Shown: positions 16,936 through 25,130 of the stretch, in pieces | Numbering within the stretch: position 1 is the stretch's first letter | Layout of the letters: each line of letters starts with the position of its first letter | Notes under the pieces: generated by a model | What the model saw: only the letters and a program-made list of their open reading frames with translations | Told to the model about the DNA's origin: nothing | The model's database searches: none | Made by a program: the position numbers and the translations under genes | Assembly: GCF_023231945.1 (NCBI RefSeq) | Contig: NZ_JAJLJH010000018.1 | Coordinates: 1-47,490 of the forward strand | Source of the DNA: Scleromatobacter humisilvae | Lineage (GTDB): Bacteria > Pseudomonadota > Gammaproteobacteria > Burkholderiales > Burkholderiaceae_C | Length of the DNA stretch: 47,490 nt | Reading direction: 5' to 3'

Positions 16936-19587
16936 CTACGTGCCGCGGCCCAAGGTCGCGCGCAGGTAGCCGGCCGTGCGGCTCGTGCGATCGCGCGCCA
17001 CCTGCTCCGGCGTGCCGCAGGCGACGATGCGGCCGCCCTCCTCGCCGGCGCCCGGCCCCATGTCGATCACCCAGTCGCTGGCCGCGACGAGGCGCATCTC
17101 GTGCTCGACGACCACCACGGTGTTGCCCGCGTCGACCAGGCCCTGCAACTGCGCCATCAGGCGGTCGACGTCCGACGGATGCAGGCCGGTGCTGGGCTCG
17201 TCGAGCACGTAGAGCGTGTCGCCGCGCTGCGGCCGCTGCAGCTCGGTGGCCAGCTTGATGCGCTGCGCCTCGCCGCCCGACAACTCCGTGGCCGGCTGGC
17301 CCAGGCGCAGGTAGCCCAGGCCGATGTCACGCAAGATGCCGAGCGGCTTGCGCACCGCGGGCTCGTCGGCGAAGAAGGCCCAGGCGTCGTCGACCGTCAT
17401 CGCGAGCACGTCGGCAATGTGCCTGCCGTGCCACGCGATCTTGAGCGTGTCCTCGTTGTAGCGCGCGCCGTGGCAGGTCGGGCACGGCGCGTAGACGCTG
17501 GGCATGAACAGCAGCTCGACGCTGACGAAGCCCTCGCCCTCGCAGGTCTCGCAGCGGCCCTTGGCGACGTTGAACGAGAAGCGGCCCGCGTCGTAGCGTC
17601 GCTTGCGCGCGGCGGGCGTCGCGGCGTAGAGCTTGCGCACCGCGTCGAACAGGCCCGTGTAGGTCGCGAGGTTGGAGCGCGGCGTGCGGCCGATCGGTTT
17701 CTGGTCGACGCGCACCAGCCGGCGGATCGCCTCGGCGCCCGCATGCAGGCGCCCGCGCGTCGGCAGCACGACTTCGGGTGCAGTCTCGTCGGCGTCGTCT
17801 TCCGGATGATCCGGCTCGTGGCCCAGGTGCGCGCACACGAGTTCGACCAGCGCCTGGCTGACGAGGCTGGACTTGCCCGAGCCCGAGACGCCGGTCACCG
17901 CCGTGAACAGGCCCAGCGGAAAGCGCGCGTCCAGGTCGTGCAGGTTGTTGCGCGTGAGTCCGCGCAGTTCGAGCCAGCGCGAAGGCTCGCGCGGGGGCCG
18001 CGCGCGCGGCGCGGGCTCGGCGAAGAGGTATTGCGCCGTGCGCGAGGCCTGCACATCGCGCAGTCCTTCCGGCGGCCCGCTGTACAAGACCTCGCCGCCC
18101 TTCTCGCCGGCGTCGGGGCCGACGTCGACCAGCCAGTCCGCGCGCCGCATCACCTCGAGATCGTGCTCGACGATGAACAGCGAGTTGCCCTGCGCCTTCA
18201 GCTGCGCGAGCGCGTCGAGCAGGGCCTCGCCGTCGGCCGGATGCAGGCCGGCGGTGGGCTCGTCCAGCACGTAGACGACGCCGAACAGGTTGGAGCGGAT
18301 CTGCGTGGCCAGGCGCAGGCGCTGCAGCTCGCCGGGCGACAGCGTCGGCGTGCTGCGCTCCATCGCCAGGTAGCCCAGGCCGAGGTCCTGCAGCGTCGCG
18401 ATGCGCGCGCACAGGTCCTGCGCGATGCGTTGGGCGGCGATGCGCTTCTCCTCCGACAGGTTGGGTGTTCGGCGCACGTCCGGCGCCCCCGCGTGCGAGG
18501 AGCCGCCGGCGGCGATACGCCGTGCCGTATCCGCCCTGGCCTCCGCGCGCGTGGGCGCGGGCGCGTCCCGCGCGACGCCGCCGAAGCGACCCGCGGCCGC
18601 CGGCGCCAGCAGCGCTGCGACGCGGTCCAGCGACATCTGGCCCAGCGTGCCGATGTCGACGCCCGCGAAGGTCACCGACAGCGCCTCGCGCTTGAGCCGC
18701 TTGCCGTCGCACATCGGGCACAGGCCGCCGATCATGTAGCGCGACACGCGCTTCTTCATCAGCGCGCTCTGCGTCGTCGCGAACGTGTGCAGCACGTACT
18801 TGCGCGCGCCCATGAACGTGCCCTGGTAGCTCGGCTCCATCTTCGATTTCAGCGCCGCCTTCGTCTCCGCGGGCGTGAAGCCGGCGTAGACGGGCACGGT
18901 CGGCTGCTCCTCGGTGAACAGGATCCAGTCCCTGTCCTTCTTCGGCAGGTCGCGCCACGGACGGTCGACGTCGACGCCCAGCGTGACGAGGATGTCGCGC
19001 AGGTTCTGCCCGTGCCAGGCCGGCGGCCAGGACGCGATCGCGCGTTCGCGGATCGACAACGACGGATCGGGCACCATCGTCTGCTCGGTGACCTCGAAGA
19101 CGCGGCCCAGGCCGTGGCAGTTCGGGCAGGCGCCCTGGGCGGTGTTGGGCGAGAAGTCCTCCGCGTACAGCATCGGCTGCTTCGCCGGATACGTGCCGGC
19201 GCGCGAGTACAGCATGCGCACGAGGCTGGACAACTGCGACACGCTGCCCACCGACGAGCGCGCGCCCGGCGTGCCGCGCGCCTGCTGCAACGCGACGGCC
19301 GGCGGCAGGCCGGTGATCTCGTCGACGTCGGGCACGCCCACCTGGTCGATCAGCCGCCGAGCGTACGGCGCCACCGATTCGAAGTAGCGCCGCTGCGCTT
19401 CCGCGTAGATCGTGCCGAACGCCAGCGAGGACTTGCCCGAGCCCGAGACGCCGGTGAACACGACCAGCGCGTCGCGCGGGATGTCGACGTCGACGTCCTT
19501 TAGGTTGTGCTCGCGCGCGCCGCGCACGCGCACGAAGCCGTCGCGCGCGGCGACGGTCGTGGCCTCGGGGCGATCGCGCGGCGCCAT
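16936..19587 (-). CDS. UvrA paralog lacking the UvrB-binding domain (class II UvrA)
   Basis: This 883-aa tandem ABC ATPase belongs to the UvrA family. Both Walker A motifs (GVSGSGKSS near 46-54 and again near 580), both signatures ([24 protein letters not shown]) and both Walker B segments ([26 protein letters not shown]) are present. In canonical UvrA about 200 residues separate RRYFES from the ACPxC zinc half-site; here it is about 80, so the UvrB-binding domain and half of the first zinc module are missing. The C-terminal zinc module CETC...CPTC is intact. An Ala/Arg-rich insertion lies near 335-375. ATG 19587 overlaps the upstream SDR stop by one base (TGATG). Confidence 0.92.
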
Positions 19588-20462
19588 CAAGGCCCCGTCT
19601 CCCCGCCGGTGCTGCCCCAGACGTTGCCGGTGGTGAAGCTCGCCTCGTGCGAGGCCAGCAGCACGTATTGCGCGGCGATCTCCGCCGGCTGGCCGGGGCG
19701 GCCCAGCGGCGTGTCCTTGCCGAAGGTCGCGAGCTTGTCAGGCGGCTGGCCGCCGCTGGGCTGCAGCGGCGTCCAGTACGGCCCGGGCGCGACCGCGTTG
19801 ACGCGGATGCCCTGGGCGCCGAGCTGCTTGGCGAGCGAGCGCGTCATCGACAGGATGGCCGCCTTGGTCGCCGCGTAGTCGAGCAGGCATTCCGACGGGT
19901 CGAAGGCCTGCACCGACGACGTGTTGATGATGGCCGCGCCGCGCTTCAGGTGCGGCAGCGCCGCCTTGGTCACGTGGAACAGCGCGTAGACGTTGGTCCT
20001 GAAGACGTCGTCGAAGTGCTCGTCGGGAATGTCGGCGATCGACGGGAACGACGCCTGGCGCGCCGCGTTGTTGACGAGGAGGTCGAGTCCGCCGAGGCCC
20101 TTCGCCGCGTCGTCGACGAGCCGGCGGCAGAACGCCGCGTCGCGCAGGTCGCCCGGCAGCGCGACGGCCTGGCGCCCGGCCTTCTCGATCAGCGCGACGA
20201 CGGCCCGGGCGTCCTCCTCCTCCTGCGGCAGGTAGTTGATCGCGACGTCGGCGCCCTCGCGCGCGAACGCGATCGCCACCGCGCGGCCGATGCCCGAATC
20301 GCCGCCGGTGATCAGCGCCTTGCGGCCCGCGAGCCGGCCCGCGCCGACGTAGCTCGTCTCGCCGTGGTCGGGCGGCGGCTGCATGCGGCAGGCGAGGCCG
20401 GGCCAGGGTTGCTGCTGCTTCGCGAAGGGCGGCTTGGGGTAGGTCGGTTCCTGTTGCGGCAT
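19587..20462 (-). CDS. SDR family oxidoreductase (YghA/general-stress type)
   Basis: This 291-aa short-chain dehydrogenase/reductase uses NAD(P). The first about 45 residues form the Pro/Gln-rich extension ([13 protein letters not shown]) seen in YghA/Gsp39-like members. The cofactor loop [10 protein letters not shown], the NNAA motif and the active-site Y-A-A-T-K (in LDYAATKAA) are intact. The ATG at 20462 has GAGGA upstream. It is divergent from a pyruvate-oxidase-like gene and its stop overlaps the start of the UvrA paralog, so those two minus-strand genes may be co-transcribed. The substrate is unknown; the family is often linked to general stress. Confidence 0.92.
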
Positions 20463-20542: not shown

Positions 20543-20579
20543 TCGCCAACCTGTCCAATCCAACCGCGTGGAGCGCCGC

Positions 20580-22367
20580 ATGGCCAAGACCGTCAGCGAC
20601 CAACTGATCGCCCGTCTCGTCGAATGGGGCGTGCAGCGCGTCTACGGCTACCCCGGCGACGGCATCAACGGCGTGATGGGCGCGCTGCGGCGCGCGCAGG
20701 ACCAGGTGGCGTTCGTGCAGACGCAGCACGAGGAGCTCGCCGCGTTCATGGCGGCCGCGCACCCGAAGTTCACCGGCGAGGTCGGCGTGTGCATCGCGAC
20801 GTCCGGCCCCGGCGCGATCCACCTGCTCAATGGCCTCTACGACGCGAAGGCCGACCACCAGCCAGTGCTGGCGATCGTCGGCCAGCAGGCGCGCAGCGCG
20901 CTGGGCGGCGACTTCCAGCAGGAGGTCGACCTGGTCAGCCTGTTCAAGGACGTGGCGCACGAGTACGTGCAGATGGCCACGGTGCCCGAGCAGATCCTGC
21001 ACCTGGTCGACCGCGCGATGCGCATCGCGCGCGACCGCCGCGCCGTCACCTGCCTGATCCTGCCGAACGACTTGCAGGAGCTCGCGGCCGTCGAGCCGCC
21101 GCGCGAGCACGCGATGATGCACACGGGCATCGGCTACACCAGCCCCGAGCACGCGCCGCGCGACCTCGACCTGGTCGCCGCCGCCGCGGTGCTCAACGAA
21201 GGCAGGAAGATCGCGATCCTCGCCGGCGCGGGCGCGCTGCACGCCACCGATGAACTGATCGCGATCGCCGATCGCCTCGGCGCCGGCATCGCCAAGGCGC
21301 TGCTGGGCAAGATGGCCGTGCCCGACGACCTGCCCAACGTGACAGGCTCGATCGGCCTCCTGGGCACCGCGCCGAGCTGGAAGATGATGGAGGACTGCGA
21401 CACGCTGCTGATGGTCGGCTCGTCCTTCCCGTACTCCGAGTTCCTGCCCAAGCCGGGCCAGGCGCGCGGCGTGCAGGTCGACATCGAGCCGCGCCAGCTC
21501 GGGCTGCGCTATCCGATGGAGATCAACCTCGTCGGCGACGCGAAGCTGACGCTGCAGGCGCTGCTGCCGCTGCTCAAGACCAACCCCGACCGGTCATGGC
21601 GCGACACGATCGAGTCGAACGTGCGCGACTGGTGGCGCGTGCTCGAGTCGCGCGCGATGACCGACGCGAAGCCGATCAACCCGCAGCGCGTGTTCTGGGA
21701 GCTGTCGCCGCGGCTGCCCGACGACGCGATCCTGACGGCCGACTCCGGCACCGTGGCCTCCTGGTATGCGCGCGACATCAAGGCGCGGCGCGGCATGATG
21801 GGCACGCTGTCGGGCGGCCTCGCGACCATGGGGCCCGCGGTTCCGTACGCGTTGACGGCCAAGATGGCGTATCCCGACCGACCGGTGATCGCGCTGGTGG
21901 GCGACGGCGCGATGCAGATGCTGGGCATCAACGGCCTGATCACGATCGCGCGCGAATGGCGCAAGTGGAAGGATCCGCGGCTGGTCGTGATGGTGCTCAA
22001 CAACGGCGACCTCAACATGGTGACGTGGGAACAGCGCAGCACCGAGGGCGATCCGAAGTTCGAGGGCTCGCAGGACGTGCCGTCGTTCCCGTATGCGCAA
22101 TACGGCCGCATGCTGGGGCTCGGCGGCGTACGCGTCGAGCAGCCCGCCGACATCGCCGGCGCGTGGGACGAGGCGCTGGCGTCGGACCGGCCGATGGTGC
22201 TGGAGATGGTCACCGACCCGACCGTGCCGCCCGCGCCGCCGCACATCACGGCCAAGCAGGTGCGCCACTACGCGGCGGCGCTGCTGCAGGGCGACGCGCA
22301 GGCGCTGCAGGTGGTCAGGTCCAGCGCGCGCGAGTGGTGGGATGGGCTGGTCAGGACGAAGACGTGA
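20580..22367 (+). CDS. Thiamine-diphosphate-dependent enzyme, pyruvate oxidase-like
   Basis: This 595-aa protein has the three-domain POX/acetolactate-synthase fold. The N-terminal [10 protein letters not shown] and the catalytic Glu in TQHEELAAF activate ThDP; the ThDP/Mg site is GDGAMQM ending in VLNNGDLN. The middle domain (about 190-340) is the FAD/regulatory Rossmann domain. It most resembles PoxB-type pyruvate oxidases, which decarboxylate pyruvate to acetate at the membrane, and is close to E. coli PoxB (572 aa) in length; a different 2-oxoacid substrate is possible. GGAG lies upstream of the ATG. It is divergent from the SDR gene. Confidence 0.88.
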
Positions 22368-22373
22368 TCCCGC

Positions 22374-25130
22374 CTACTGGATGCTCGAGCTCGAGCCGTT
22401 CGTCCAGTGGATCTTGCCGTGCAGTGCCGCGGTGCCACCCTCGCAACGCTGCTCGAAGCGCAGGTCCAGCGAGGCGATCGCACCGGCGCTGTAGGTGATG
22501 GCGTCGACCGCGAACCAGCCGATCGACGTGTTGCAGGCGCGGCCCTCGCCCGTCCAGCTGAGCCCGCCGGTGACCGGGTTGTTGAACGGAAAGCGTTCCA
22601 CGTTCGGGTAGTAGCCCGGCTGCAGCTGCGTGATGCTGTTCATGCCGACGAAGTTGCCCGACCAGTCGCCGACGTTGCCGACGCCGACGTTGACCTGCGC
22701 CCCGCTGCCGAAGACCGAGAAGGCCCAGCTCGGCGGCGTATACAGCGTGGTCTGGCCCTCGCCGATGTAGTCCGTCGCATCGCTCTGCAGGTACACGTAG
22801 TTGCCCGACGCCGGGGTGCTGCCGTCCGGCGGCGTCCACAGGCCGCCGGGCACCGGGTTCTGCGGCCCGGGCGGGCGGGTGGTGTCGCCGGCGACCCAGT
22901 GGATCTGGCCGTGCAGTGCCGCGCCGCCGCCCTCGCAGTGCTGTTCGAAGCGCAGGTCGACCGACGCCAGCGTGCCGCCCGAAAAGCTGATGCTGTCGAT
23001 CGCGAACCAGCCGGTGAGCGTATTGCAGCCGCGCCCGTCGCCGGAGAAGGACAGTCCGCCGGTGACCGGGTTGTTGAACGGATAGCGCTCCAGGTTCGGG
23101 TAGTAGCCGGGCTGCAGCTGCGCGATGCTGTTCATGCCCAGGAAATCGCCCGTCCAGTTGTCGTTGCCCGTGACGGAGAAGCCCAGGTGGGTGCCGGACA
23201 GCGTCGGCGCGAGCACCGCGTTGGCCTGCGTGTAGGCATAGGTGGCGCCGGCCCCGATGTAGTCGCCCGCGTCGCTCTGCAGGTACACGTAGTTGCCGGT
23301 TGCCGGCGTCGCGCCCGCGGGCGCGCGCCACAGCGAAGCGGGCGGCGGATTCTGCGGCCCCGCGGGCGCGGTGGTGTCGCCCGCGACCCAGTGGATCTGG
23401 CCATGCAGCGCCGCGGTTCCGCCTTCGCAGTGCTGCTCGAAACGCAGGTCGACGGCCGTCACGGCGCCGGCCGTCACGGTGATGTCGTCGATCGCGAACC
23501 AGCCCGCCAGCGTGTTGCAGCCGCGGCCGTCGCCGTCCCAGGACAGTCCGCCGGTGACCGGGTTGTTGAACGGGTAGCGCTGGAGGCCGGCGTAGTAACC
23601 GGGCTGCAGTTGCGAGATGCTGTTCATGCCCTGGAAGTCGCCCGTCCAGTTGTCGTTGCCCGTGACGCCGACGCTCAGGTGCGTGCCGTTCAGCGTCATC
23701 GTCAGCACCGCGTTGGCCTGCGTGTACGTGCCGGTGGCGCCGGCGCCGATGTAGTCGCCGGCATCGCTTTGCAGGTAGACGTAGTTGCCTGTCGCGGGCG
23801 TCGCGCCGGCGGGGGCGCGCCACAGCGACGCCGGCGCCGGATCGACCGGGCCCGCCGCCTTCGAGCTGTCGCTGGCCAGCCAATGGATCTGTCCGCGCAG
23901 CGCCGGCGCGCCGCCCTCGCAATGCTGCTCGAAGCGCAGGTCGATCGCCGTGAGCGTCGAGCCCGAGTAGGTGGCCTTGTCGATGGTGATGCTGCCGGTG
24001 TCGACGTTGCAGCCGCGGCCGTCGCCCGACCAGTCGATGCCGCCGATCGCGGCGTTGCGGAACGCGAAGCGCGTCAGGTTCGCGTAGGTGCCGGGCTGCA
24101 GCACCGCGAGCGCGCTCGGCTCGGCGAAGTCGCCGGTCCAGTTGTCGTTGCCGTTGACGCCCACGTGCAGGGTGCCGCCGGACGCCGTCACCGTGAGCTG
24201 CGCGTTGGCGCTGCTGTACGTGTTGGACTGGCCGGCGCCGATGTAGTCGCCGCTGTCGCTTTGCAGGGTGACGAACGAGGCGCTGCCCGTGCTGTTCAGC
24301 GCGGTCGTGGCCGTCGCCGTGGCCACGTTGTTGCTCGCGAGCGGATCGCCGTTGGGCGTGGCGTAGAGCGTGTTGGCGATCGCGCCGAGGGCGTTGGCGT
24401 TGATGGTCGTGGACACGTTGAACTGCAGCGTGCCGCCCACCGGTAGCGTCGGCACCGTCATGACGGCGCCCGGCGTCGACGGGCACGTCGCGCCGCCCTG
24501 GGCCGCGCAGGTGACGGCACCGAGGGTCTGGTGGGGGTCGGCCGTGTTCTGCAGCTGGACGTTGCTGGCGGCGTCGGGGCCGGCGTTGGTCACGGTCATC
24601 GTGTACGTCGCCGAGCCGCCGCTGGTCAGCGTGGTCGTGGGCCCCTGTCCGGTCACCTGGACGTCGGCGGAGAACGCCTGCACGCTCATGGTCACCTGGT
24701 CGGCGGACGACAGGGGCATGCCATCCGCGGTGACCGACGCCGAGGCGGTGAGCGTCCCGCGCGTGCCGGCGCCGATCGTCGCGGTCACGACGTAATGCAG
24801 GCTGCCGGAGCCCGGCAGGCTCGCGACGCTCATGCTGGCGGGGTTCGCCGGGCAGGTGGCGCCGTTCGACGCCGAACAGGTGACGTTGGTCTGCGTGAGT
24901 CCGCTGCCGAGCGTGAGCGCGGCGATCACGTTCGACACCGCCGTGGCGGTCTCGTTGTGCACCACCACGTCGAACTGCACCGAGCTGCCGGTGGCCACCG
25001 GCGTGGTCGGCGCCGTGGCGGTGATCGACACCTTGCCCGAGGGGTCGGACGAACTCCCGCCGCCCCCGCCGCCGCCGCAGGCCACCATCGCCGACAGCAT
25101 CAGCACTGCCAGCACGTTCGTGAACTTCAT
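22374..25130 (-). CDS. Large lipoprotein: two DUF11-like domains and four copies of an unnamed 164-residue repeat
   Basis: This protein has 918 aa. Residues 1-18 form a lipoprotein signal (LSAMVAC, lipidated Cys18), followed by a Gly/Ser tether. Residues 31-150 and 152-278 look like two DUF11/CARDB-like Ig-type domains, each with a paired-Cys segment (VTC...ATCP). Then come four domains (about 285-418, 449-583, 613-747, 777-911) at an exact 164-residue spacing, joined by Pro/Ala-rich linkers. Each has LQSD..DYIG, a GN..NWTGDF-like motif, LQPG.Y, GRGCN (GRACN in the last) and LRFEQ.CEGG...L.G.IHW. Two Cys per copy suggest a disulfide. I cannot match this repeat to a named family. It is probably a surface or periplasmic binding or adhesive protein. 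Confidence 0.85.
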   Translation of the reverse strand: MKFTNVLAVLMLSAMVACGGGGGGGSSSDPSGKVSITATAPTTPVATGSSVQFDVVVHNETATAVSNVIAALTLGSGLTQTNVTCSASNGATCPANPASMSVASLPGSGSLHYVVTATIGAGTRGTLTASASVTADGMPLSSADQVTMSVQAFSADVQVTGQGPTTTLTSGGSATYTMTVTNAGPDAASNVQLQNTADPHQTLGAVTCAAQGGATCPSTPGAVMTVPTLPVGGTLQFNVSTTINANALGAIANTLYATPNGDPLASNNVATATATTALNSTGSASFVTLQSDSGDYIGAGQSNTYSSANAQLTVTASGGTLHVGVNGNDNWTGDFAEPSALAVLQPGTYANLTRFAFRNAAIGGIDWSGDGRGCNVDTGSITIDKATYSGSTLTAIDLRFEQHCEGGAPALRGQIHWLASDSSKAAGPVDPAPASLWRAPAGATPATGNYVYLQSDAGDYIGAGATGTYTQANAVLTMTLNGTHLSVGVTGNDNWTGDFQGMNSISQLQPGYYAGLQRYPFNNPVTGGLSWDGDGRGCNTLAGWFAIDDITVTAGAVTAVDLRFEQHCEGGTAALHGQIHWVAGDTTAPAGPQNPPPASLWRAPAGATPATGNYVYLQSDAGDYIGAGATYAYTQANAVLAPTLSGTHLGFSVTGNDNWTGDFLGMNSIAQLQPGYYPNLERYPFNNPVTGGLSFSGDGRGCNTLTGWFAIDSISFSGGTLASVDLRFEQHCEGGGAALHGQIHWVAGDTTRPPGPQNPVPGGLWTPPDGSTPASGNYVYLQSDATDYIGEGQTTLYTPPSWAFSVFGSGAQVNVGVGNVGDWSGNFVGMNSITQLQPGYYPNVERFPFNNPVTGGLSWTGEGRACNTSIGWFAVDAITYSAGAIASLDLRFEQRCEGGTAALHGKIHWTNGSSSSIQ
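22398..24278 (-). repeat. Four tandem 492-bp coding repeats
   Basis: Copies run from 24278 to 23877, 23786 to 23382, 23294 to 22890 and 22802 to 22398 on the minus strand. LQSD anchors at residues 289, 453, 617 and 781 give a period of exactly 164 codons. At the DNA level the segment ccgccggtgaccgggttgtt recurs at 22564, 23056 and 23548, 492 bp apart. Copies 2 and 3 are the most alike; copy 1 is the most diverged, and copy 4 also differs in its first half. Confidence 0.9.

Follow-up and report, generated by a model that had tools for sequence, protein, structure and literature searches.

The closest described systems are the fibrillar-adhesin-like proteins, in which, going by the parts of the two papers drawn on here (PMC8286594, PMC9210967), a stalk domain is combined with further repeated domains and which are known by their named adhesive domains. 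DUF11 is termed a stalk domain in the relevant section of PMC9210967, and the corresponding part of PMC8286594 indicates that stalk and adhesive domains are possibly interchangeable and that in Proteobacteria adhesive domains favour the termini weakly. The repeat lipoprotein described here, encoded in a window of 47,490 nucleotides (the whole stretch of DNA that was analysed), resembles these proteins in joining a stalk domain to further repeats. In contrast to the adhesins as presented in those sections, its repeat has no entry in the libraries searched, and its presumed anchor is an N-terminal lipid; a known stalk domain is present and a known adhesive domain is absent. DUF11 repeat proteins (PF01345) are comparable in that two DUF11 domains also precede the units of the window protein, but DUF11 covers the stalk only. 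Lipocalin and calycin β-barrels are likewise all-beta and of similar size to the unit, which differs from them in being predicted as ten-stranded, in giving no sequence signal and in reaching TM scores of at most 0.41 among the listed matches. Two secreted hypothetical proteins from Streptomyces (WP_331747960.1 and WP_176145861.1) each contain two homologous units with both cysteines, and share GDWIG-like, G.GC/GRAC-like and F.Q.C-like motifs with the window units; their units, however, abut (spacings of 139 and 146) without a linker, and no lipobox is seen by eye.

The features of the window gene are collected in Table 1. The preliminary description placed the gene correctly and left its coding strand, which is the minus strand, unstated. 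The GC3 of the gene is 0.95, and a search of its own genome with the encoded protein returned no match besides itself. In the lipobox-like sequence, Gly rather than Asp stands at +2 and the Met at -3 is not canonical; owing to this Met, the protein was missed by a simple lipobox pattern. The two DUF11-like spacers that had been proposed ahead of the repeats are recognized by Pfam (PF01345) in two stretches at E 8.8e-19, the best of them covering residues 156-273, while NCBIfam TIGR01451 scored just short of its cut-off. Each DUF11 domain contains a Cys pair (85/93 and 208/216).

Table 1. Positions of the repeat-lipoprotein gene, its parts and the adjoining convergent gene in the window
Feature	Position	Strand	Basis or remark
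Whole gene, 918-aa repeat lipoprotein	22374..25130	-	ATG at 25130, stop at 22374-22376
Putative signal peptide to lipobox-like LSAMVAC (Cys18), then Gly-rich stretch	25077..25130	-	sequence
Two DUF11 domains (stalk-like)	24312..25028, outer limits approximate	-	Pfam PF01345
Unit copy 1 (first-position type)	23862..24281	-	nearest relative is copy 1 of L013
24-residue linker, copies 1 and 2 (GP..P.P..LW.AP.G.TPA type)	23790..23861	-	
Unit copy 2	23370..23789	-	structure predicted, pLDDT 97.5
24-residue linker, copies 2 and 3	23298..23369	-	predicted ordered
Unit copy 3	22878..23297	-	81% identical to copy 2
24-residue linker, copies 3 and 4	22806..22877	-	
Unit copy 4 (last-position type)	22386..22805	-	nearest relative is last copy of L014
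TPP-dependent enzyme gene	20565-22367	+	convergent; 6 bases from the repeat-lipoprotein stop codon

The C-terminal part of the protein is made up of four units of about 140 residues, with three residues remaining after copy 4. The LQSD anchors reported at residues 289, 453, 617 and 781 are indeed spaced by exactly 164, the DNA repeats lying 492, 492 and 492 bp apart, and comparison of residues 286-918 with themselves gives 67% identity at an offset of 164 and 58% at 328, against 13% or less at all other offsets in the range 100 to 399. Protein identity among the four copies is 45-81% over 134 residues, copies 2 and 3 being the closest. Among the motifs that had been described, GRGCN (GRACN in copy 4) is found in copies 1-3, while every copy has LRFEQ.CEGG and G.IHW; a NWTGDF-like motif had been ascribed to each copy, and NWTGDF itself stands in copies 1-3, with GDWSGNF in its place in copy 4. 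Each unit has exactly two cysteines (374/404, 538/568, 702/732 and 866/896).

Besides DUF11, the window protein gave only matches under the curated cut-offs of Pfam and NCBIfam, and no match to PDB sequences. Searching Pfam with the four copies, as had been proposed, yielded no clear match to a characterised domain: the units alone had no match at E ≤ 1, and so none to PF01345. The four-unit alignment matched PHROGs once and weakly (E 0.15) and PDB sequences four times at E 0.16-0.22, with no match in PADLOC. A larger alignment of 128 units was drawn from 133 units found, of which 127 were kept (at least 110 aa, below 80% mutual identity), with three kept units of L002 exchanged for the four window units. 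These reached eight Pfam families at E ≤ 0.1, each through one member and at E 0.022 or worse, with no lipocalin family and no convincing adhesive domain among them, the window protein likewise having none. In NCBIfam seven families were reached by one member each (E 0.0053 or worse); PHROGs returned 16 matches, the best of which has no assigned function and was reached by five members (E 0.0065); and the 128-unit profile had no match in PDB sequences. We take the weak Pfam, NCBIfam and PHROGs matches of the 128 units to be chance. The earlier view that no named family fits the unit thus holds across Pfam, NCBIfam, PHROGs, PADLOC and PDB sequences, none of which gave a convincing candidate. 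Literature searches, including three short peptide motifs used as text, returned no description of the domain, one motif matching virology papers only. As far as these searches reach, and within the libraries searched, the unit appears to be an undescribed domain family in an architecture of a known kind.

The unit family is real, well bounded, and widespread yet sparse. A scan of genome contigs recovered 42 public loci that contain the unit and whose labels span five phyla; among the labels are Massilia, Pseudoduganella, Variovorax, Undibacterium, Rhizobacter, Steroidobacteraceae and Woeseiaceae as well as Geobacter, Gemmatimonadetes, Nitrospirae and Chloroflexi; many of these loci are metagenome bins whose taxon labels are possibly wrong. 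Units were also found by tblastn in four plasmid records (three Streptomyces, one Photobacterium), and the contig scan and tblastn records together carry six phylum labels. Of 150 genomes sampled from the window's family, 5 carry the unit gene, the window genome among them, and of 4 genomes in its genus 1 does, namely the window genome itself. At least 3 of 299 genomes of the phylum carry it, again counting the window genome, as do at least 8 of 145 genomes in the family to which the Massilia genome G445 belongs; four of these had already appeared in the contig scan. With six phylum labels, one to six copies, a near-fixed period and a linker that is conserved and predicted to be ordered, the module merits an entry of its own as a family and an experimental structure.

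One tblastn record is labelled 'Bacteriophage sp.' (MT837699.1; L060, 1-6354, human faeces) and encodes a two-unit protein with Ig-like repeats. A phage origin was rejected because the record is UNVERIFIED and, on inspection by eye, the remaining ORFs resemble actinobacterial chromosomal genes. At a separate locus (L057, G439:C1:252971-253462) the unit region is interrupted by a TGA and runs over two open frames, apparently either as a pseudogene or through an error in sequencing.

Proteins of the family contain one to six units. Over a set of 53 rows, which includes fragments, two units occur in 22, three in 11, one in 7, four in 6, five in 6 and six in 1; four of the seven single-unit rows are short or split frames, and L095 and L096 are two further single-unit proteins. 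Such arrays of one to six units offer a natural series on repeat number versus avidity or reach of surface proteins. The 229-aa L096 comes from the same genome (G465) as L054, lacks the Cys pair and ends in a VPEP-type tail, which we take to be a PEP-CTERM sorting signal. Of 91 unit spacings, 84 fall within 157-169, with 44 of them at exactly 164, and because of this the 164-residue period is, judged by these counts, a trait of the family and not a relic of fresh duplication in the window. The seven outlying spacings belong to L004, L046 and L044 (151-152), to the Streptomyces pairs (139 and 146) and to L060 and L062 (223 and 235). The linker is similarly constrained, with Trp154 conserved at 98%, Gly165 at 96%, Pro150 at 94%, Pro145 at 89% and Pro162 at 88% over 83 pairs.

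The last unit lies within five residues of the frame end in 46 of the 53 rows, with 279 residues following it in L062 and 185 in L060. More than 200 residues precede the first unit in 18 of the 53 frames (L005 counted only via a frame open upstream of its likely start); in the remainder the units follow almost directly after the N-terminus and leave little room for a separate stalk, so that the anchor-stalk-array plan of the window protein is a minority form. A simple lipobox pattern is found in 29 of 55 listed rows, two L059 rows being duplicates of L057 and the L063 match probably spurious. Partner domains were scanned in 49 of the 53 rows, four fragment rows being left out, and comprise K319L-like PKD (8), PKD_4 (5), DUF4214 (7) and DUF11 (4), with Big, cadherin-like and fn3 models in one row each; some of these matches are under the Pfam cut-off. 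Among ten proteins examined, the partners are N-terminal of the units in L006, L015, L017, L035, L048 and L049, and C-terminal in L062. Since the terminal preference of adhesive domains in Proteobacteria is weak in the part of PMC8286594 considered, the position of the units alone says little.

Two cysteines (unit positions 91 and 121) are present in 123 of the 128 units and neither is present in the other five; one alone never occurs. The suggestion that the two cysteines could pair is strengthened by this joint presence or loss, which makes a C91-C121 disulfide very likely and points in turn to oxidation outside the cytoplasm. The Cys-less units are the third units of L040, L042, L045, L047 and L049, five of the six proteins with five units, which suggests a changed role for that position; in the sixth, L023, the third unit retains both cysteines. 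The architecture, the period, the conserved linker and the joint behaviour of the cysteines are read from the sequences themselves.

Prediction of the structure of one copy, also proposed in the preliminary description, gave a confident ten-strand β-domain. With the 128-unit alignment, AlphaFold2 modelled copy 2 at pLDDT 97.5 and pTM 0.91, with ten strands and no helix. Copies 2-3, modelled together with an 83-row alignment, reached pLDDT 96.9 and pTM 0.89, the linker blocks scoring 95-98; from pLDDT and pTM we read this model as a rigid pair with a docked linker. Both the fold and the rigidity of the array are thus predicted. Conserved aromatic and polar positions of the unit include W48 (97%), E118 (91%), W134 (89%), W84 (88%), R89 (85%), R116 (84%) and W97 (78%), with H133 also well conserved. 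When odd and even loops were compared (2.28 and 2.03 bits, with 2.36 over all positions), conservation showed no clear concentration in the loops of one end, and it may reflect folding instead of a binding site.

We tentatively favour, with a probability somewhat short of even, a surface protein held by a lipid anchor, whose rigid array of disulfide-stapled units would bind a ligand outside the cell, perhaps a glycan; that the window protein is lipid-anchored, lies at the surface and binds a ligand is what we infer. After export and attachment of the lipid anchor, the two DUF11 domains would serve as a spacer ahead of the C-terminal four-unit array. Each unit would form a ten-strand beta-domain closed by one C91-C121 disulfide, and the 24-residue Pro-rich linker with its near-invariant Trp would dock between units, giving a stiff rod whose repeat is constant. 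Several equivalent ligand sites would lie along this rod, with avidity set by unit number. A glycan or matrix would be a likelier ligand than a small molecule, and a glycan is the first guess on account of the conserved Trp, Tyr, Arg and Glu and of the PEP-CTERM-like tail of L096, PEP-CTERM signals being linked with exopolysaccharide producers. We count in favour of the surface array the DUF11 stalk, the partner domains, the lipobox in 29 of 55 rows, the Cys pairing, the period, the linker and the AlphaFold2 models, together with the conserved aromatic and polar residues, the terminal last units and the L096 tail. Counted against it are a stalk that is not general, the C-terminal partners of L062, the lack of a conserved neighbour that would hint at a substrate, a conservation that has no clear focus in the loops of one end, and the sparseness of the gene.

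The constant period, the conserved linker and the confident two-unit model would also suit the main rival, a distinctly unlikely one in our estimate, in which the unit array is itself the spacer or stalk, a rigid rod setting distance from the surface and having no ligand of its own. Most frames indeed have no room for another stalk domain ahead of the units, and the possible interchangeability of stalk and adhesive domains, as given in the section of PMC8286594 used, leaves space for such a role. However, the existence of single-unit proteins is at odds with a spacer, as is the good conservation of W97, R116, E118 and H133, though folding could account for the latter.

Searched against the PDB with Foldseek, one unit gave no match at E ≤ 0.001 among 977 (best E 0.24), and two units none among 623 (best E 0.008); a structure search against viral structures likewise gave none at E ≤ 0.001 among 556. 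Lipocalins are prominent among the best 50 of the 977 one-unit matches, where CirpA4, Can f 1, nitrophorin and odorant-binding proteins are listed, all non-significant and with TM of at most 0.41. The best two-unit matches are BFA1 and then DUF3598 (TM about 0.17-0.22), both presumably calycin-like two-barrel proteins. These listings are what would recommend each unit as a lipocalin/calycin-like barrel binding a small hydrophobic molecule, a reading that we consider quite improbable: lipocalin/calycin membership has neither a significant fold match nor a sequence-profile match behind it, the 128-unit profile having found no PDB sequence. A bolder form of the surface-array proposal, which we hold to be possible but rather unlikely, is that the unit has a fold absent from solved structures, that the Trp linker builds rigid surface rods from it, and that these constitute an undescribed lectin-like ligand-binding system in several phyla. 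Were the fold new, it would contribute an uncharted extracellular β-fold. That the units instead serve as an inhibitor or enzyme-accessory module, with proteins or components of the envelope as targets, and not as an adhesin, is highly improbable: compact disulfide-stapled secreted units, including the linkerless two-unit Streptomyces proteins, would be compatible with it, but enzyme domains are not prominent among the partners and the 128 units gave no convincing Pfam, NCBIfam or PHROGs match.

The history of the copies was followed in a tree of 141 units over 140 columns, built by a quick search in which 67 of 138 inner branches are unresolved. For 108 of the 141 units the nearest tree neighbour is of the same position class (first, middle, last or single), against a mean of 50.5 and a maximum of 77 in 1000 within-protein label shuffles, and for 20 of the 141 it lies within the unit's own protein. 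Copies 2 and 3 of the window are each other's nearest relatives, the sole such pair of the four. The tandem duplication earlier invoked for all copies appears as a recent event only for copies 2 and 3, and the array is not the product of simple duplication in this lineage. Old and distinct types appear to occupy the first and last positions, with middle copies turning over, and the unit positions seem mostly old. NG86 dN/dS for the window copies is 0.35 for the pair 2-3 and 0.52 to 1.07 for the five other pairs, values given no weight at a GC3 of 0.95.

The neighbours of the gene in the window are ordinary, comprising a UvrA-like ATPase, an SDR, a TPP enzyme, a divergent YdeI/DUF1801 gene, DUF6249 and a sigma factor; a promoter scan found one site, directed at the divergent gene. 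Clustering of the neighbours at 52 loci by greedy gene calls yielded no cluster that joined more than two loci. With ORFs of at least 90 aa, clusters of 42, 22, 19 and 6 loci were rejected as neighbours, being other frames of the unit gene as judged by the place of the best member, and the next clusters among the 25 listed reach at most four loci. An empty site could not be read by synteny because the flanking genes have their best matches on different contigs in the close relative G150 and the left flanking gene has only distant matches in other genomes (20 genomes per gene). The TPP enzyme gene has its best match among 20 related genomes, besides its own, in G150, at 64% identity. The UvrA-like protein (16936-19590, minus strand), with 884 aa and a UvrA DNA-binding domain, is compact compared with the usual UvrA and perhaps represents a second UvrA type.
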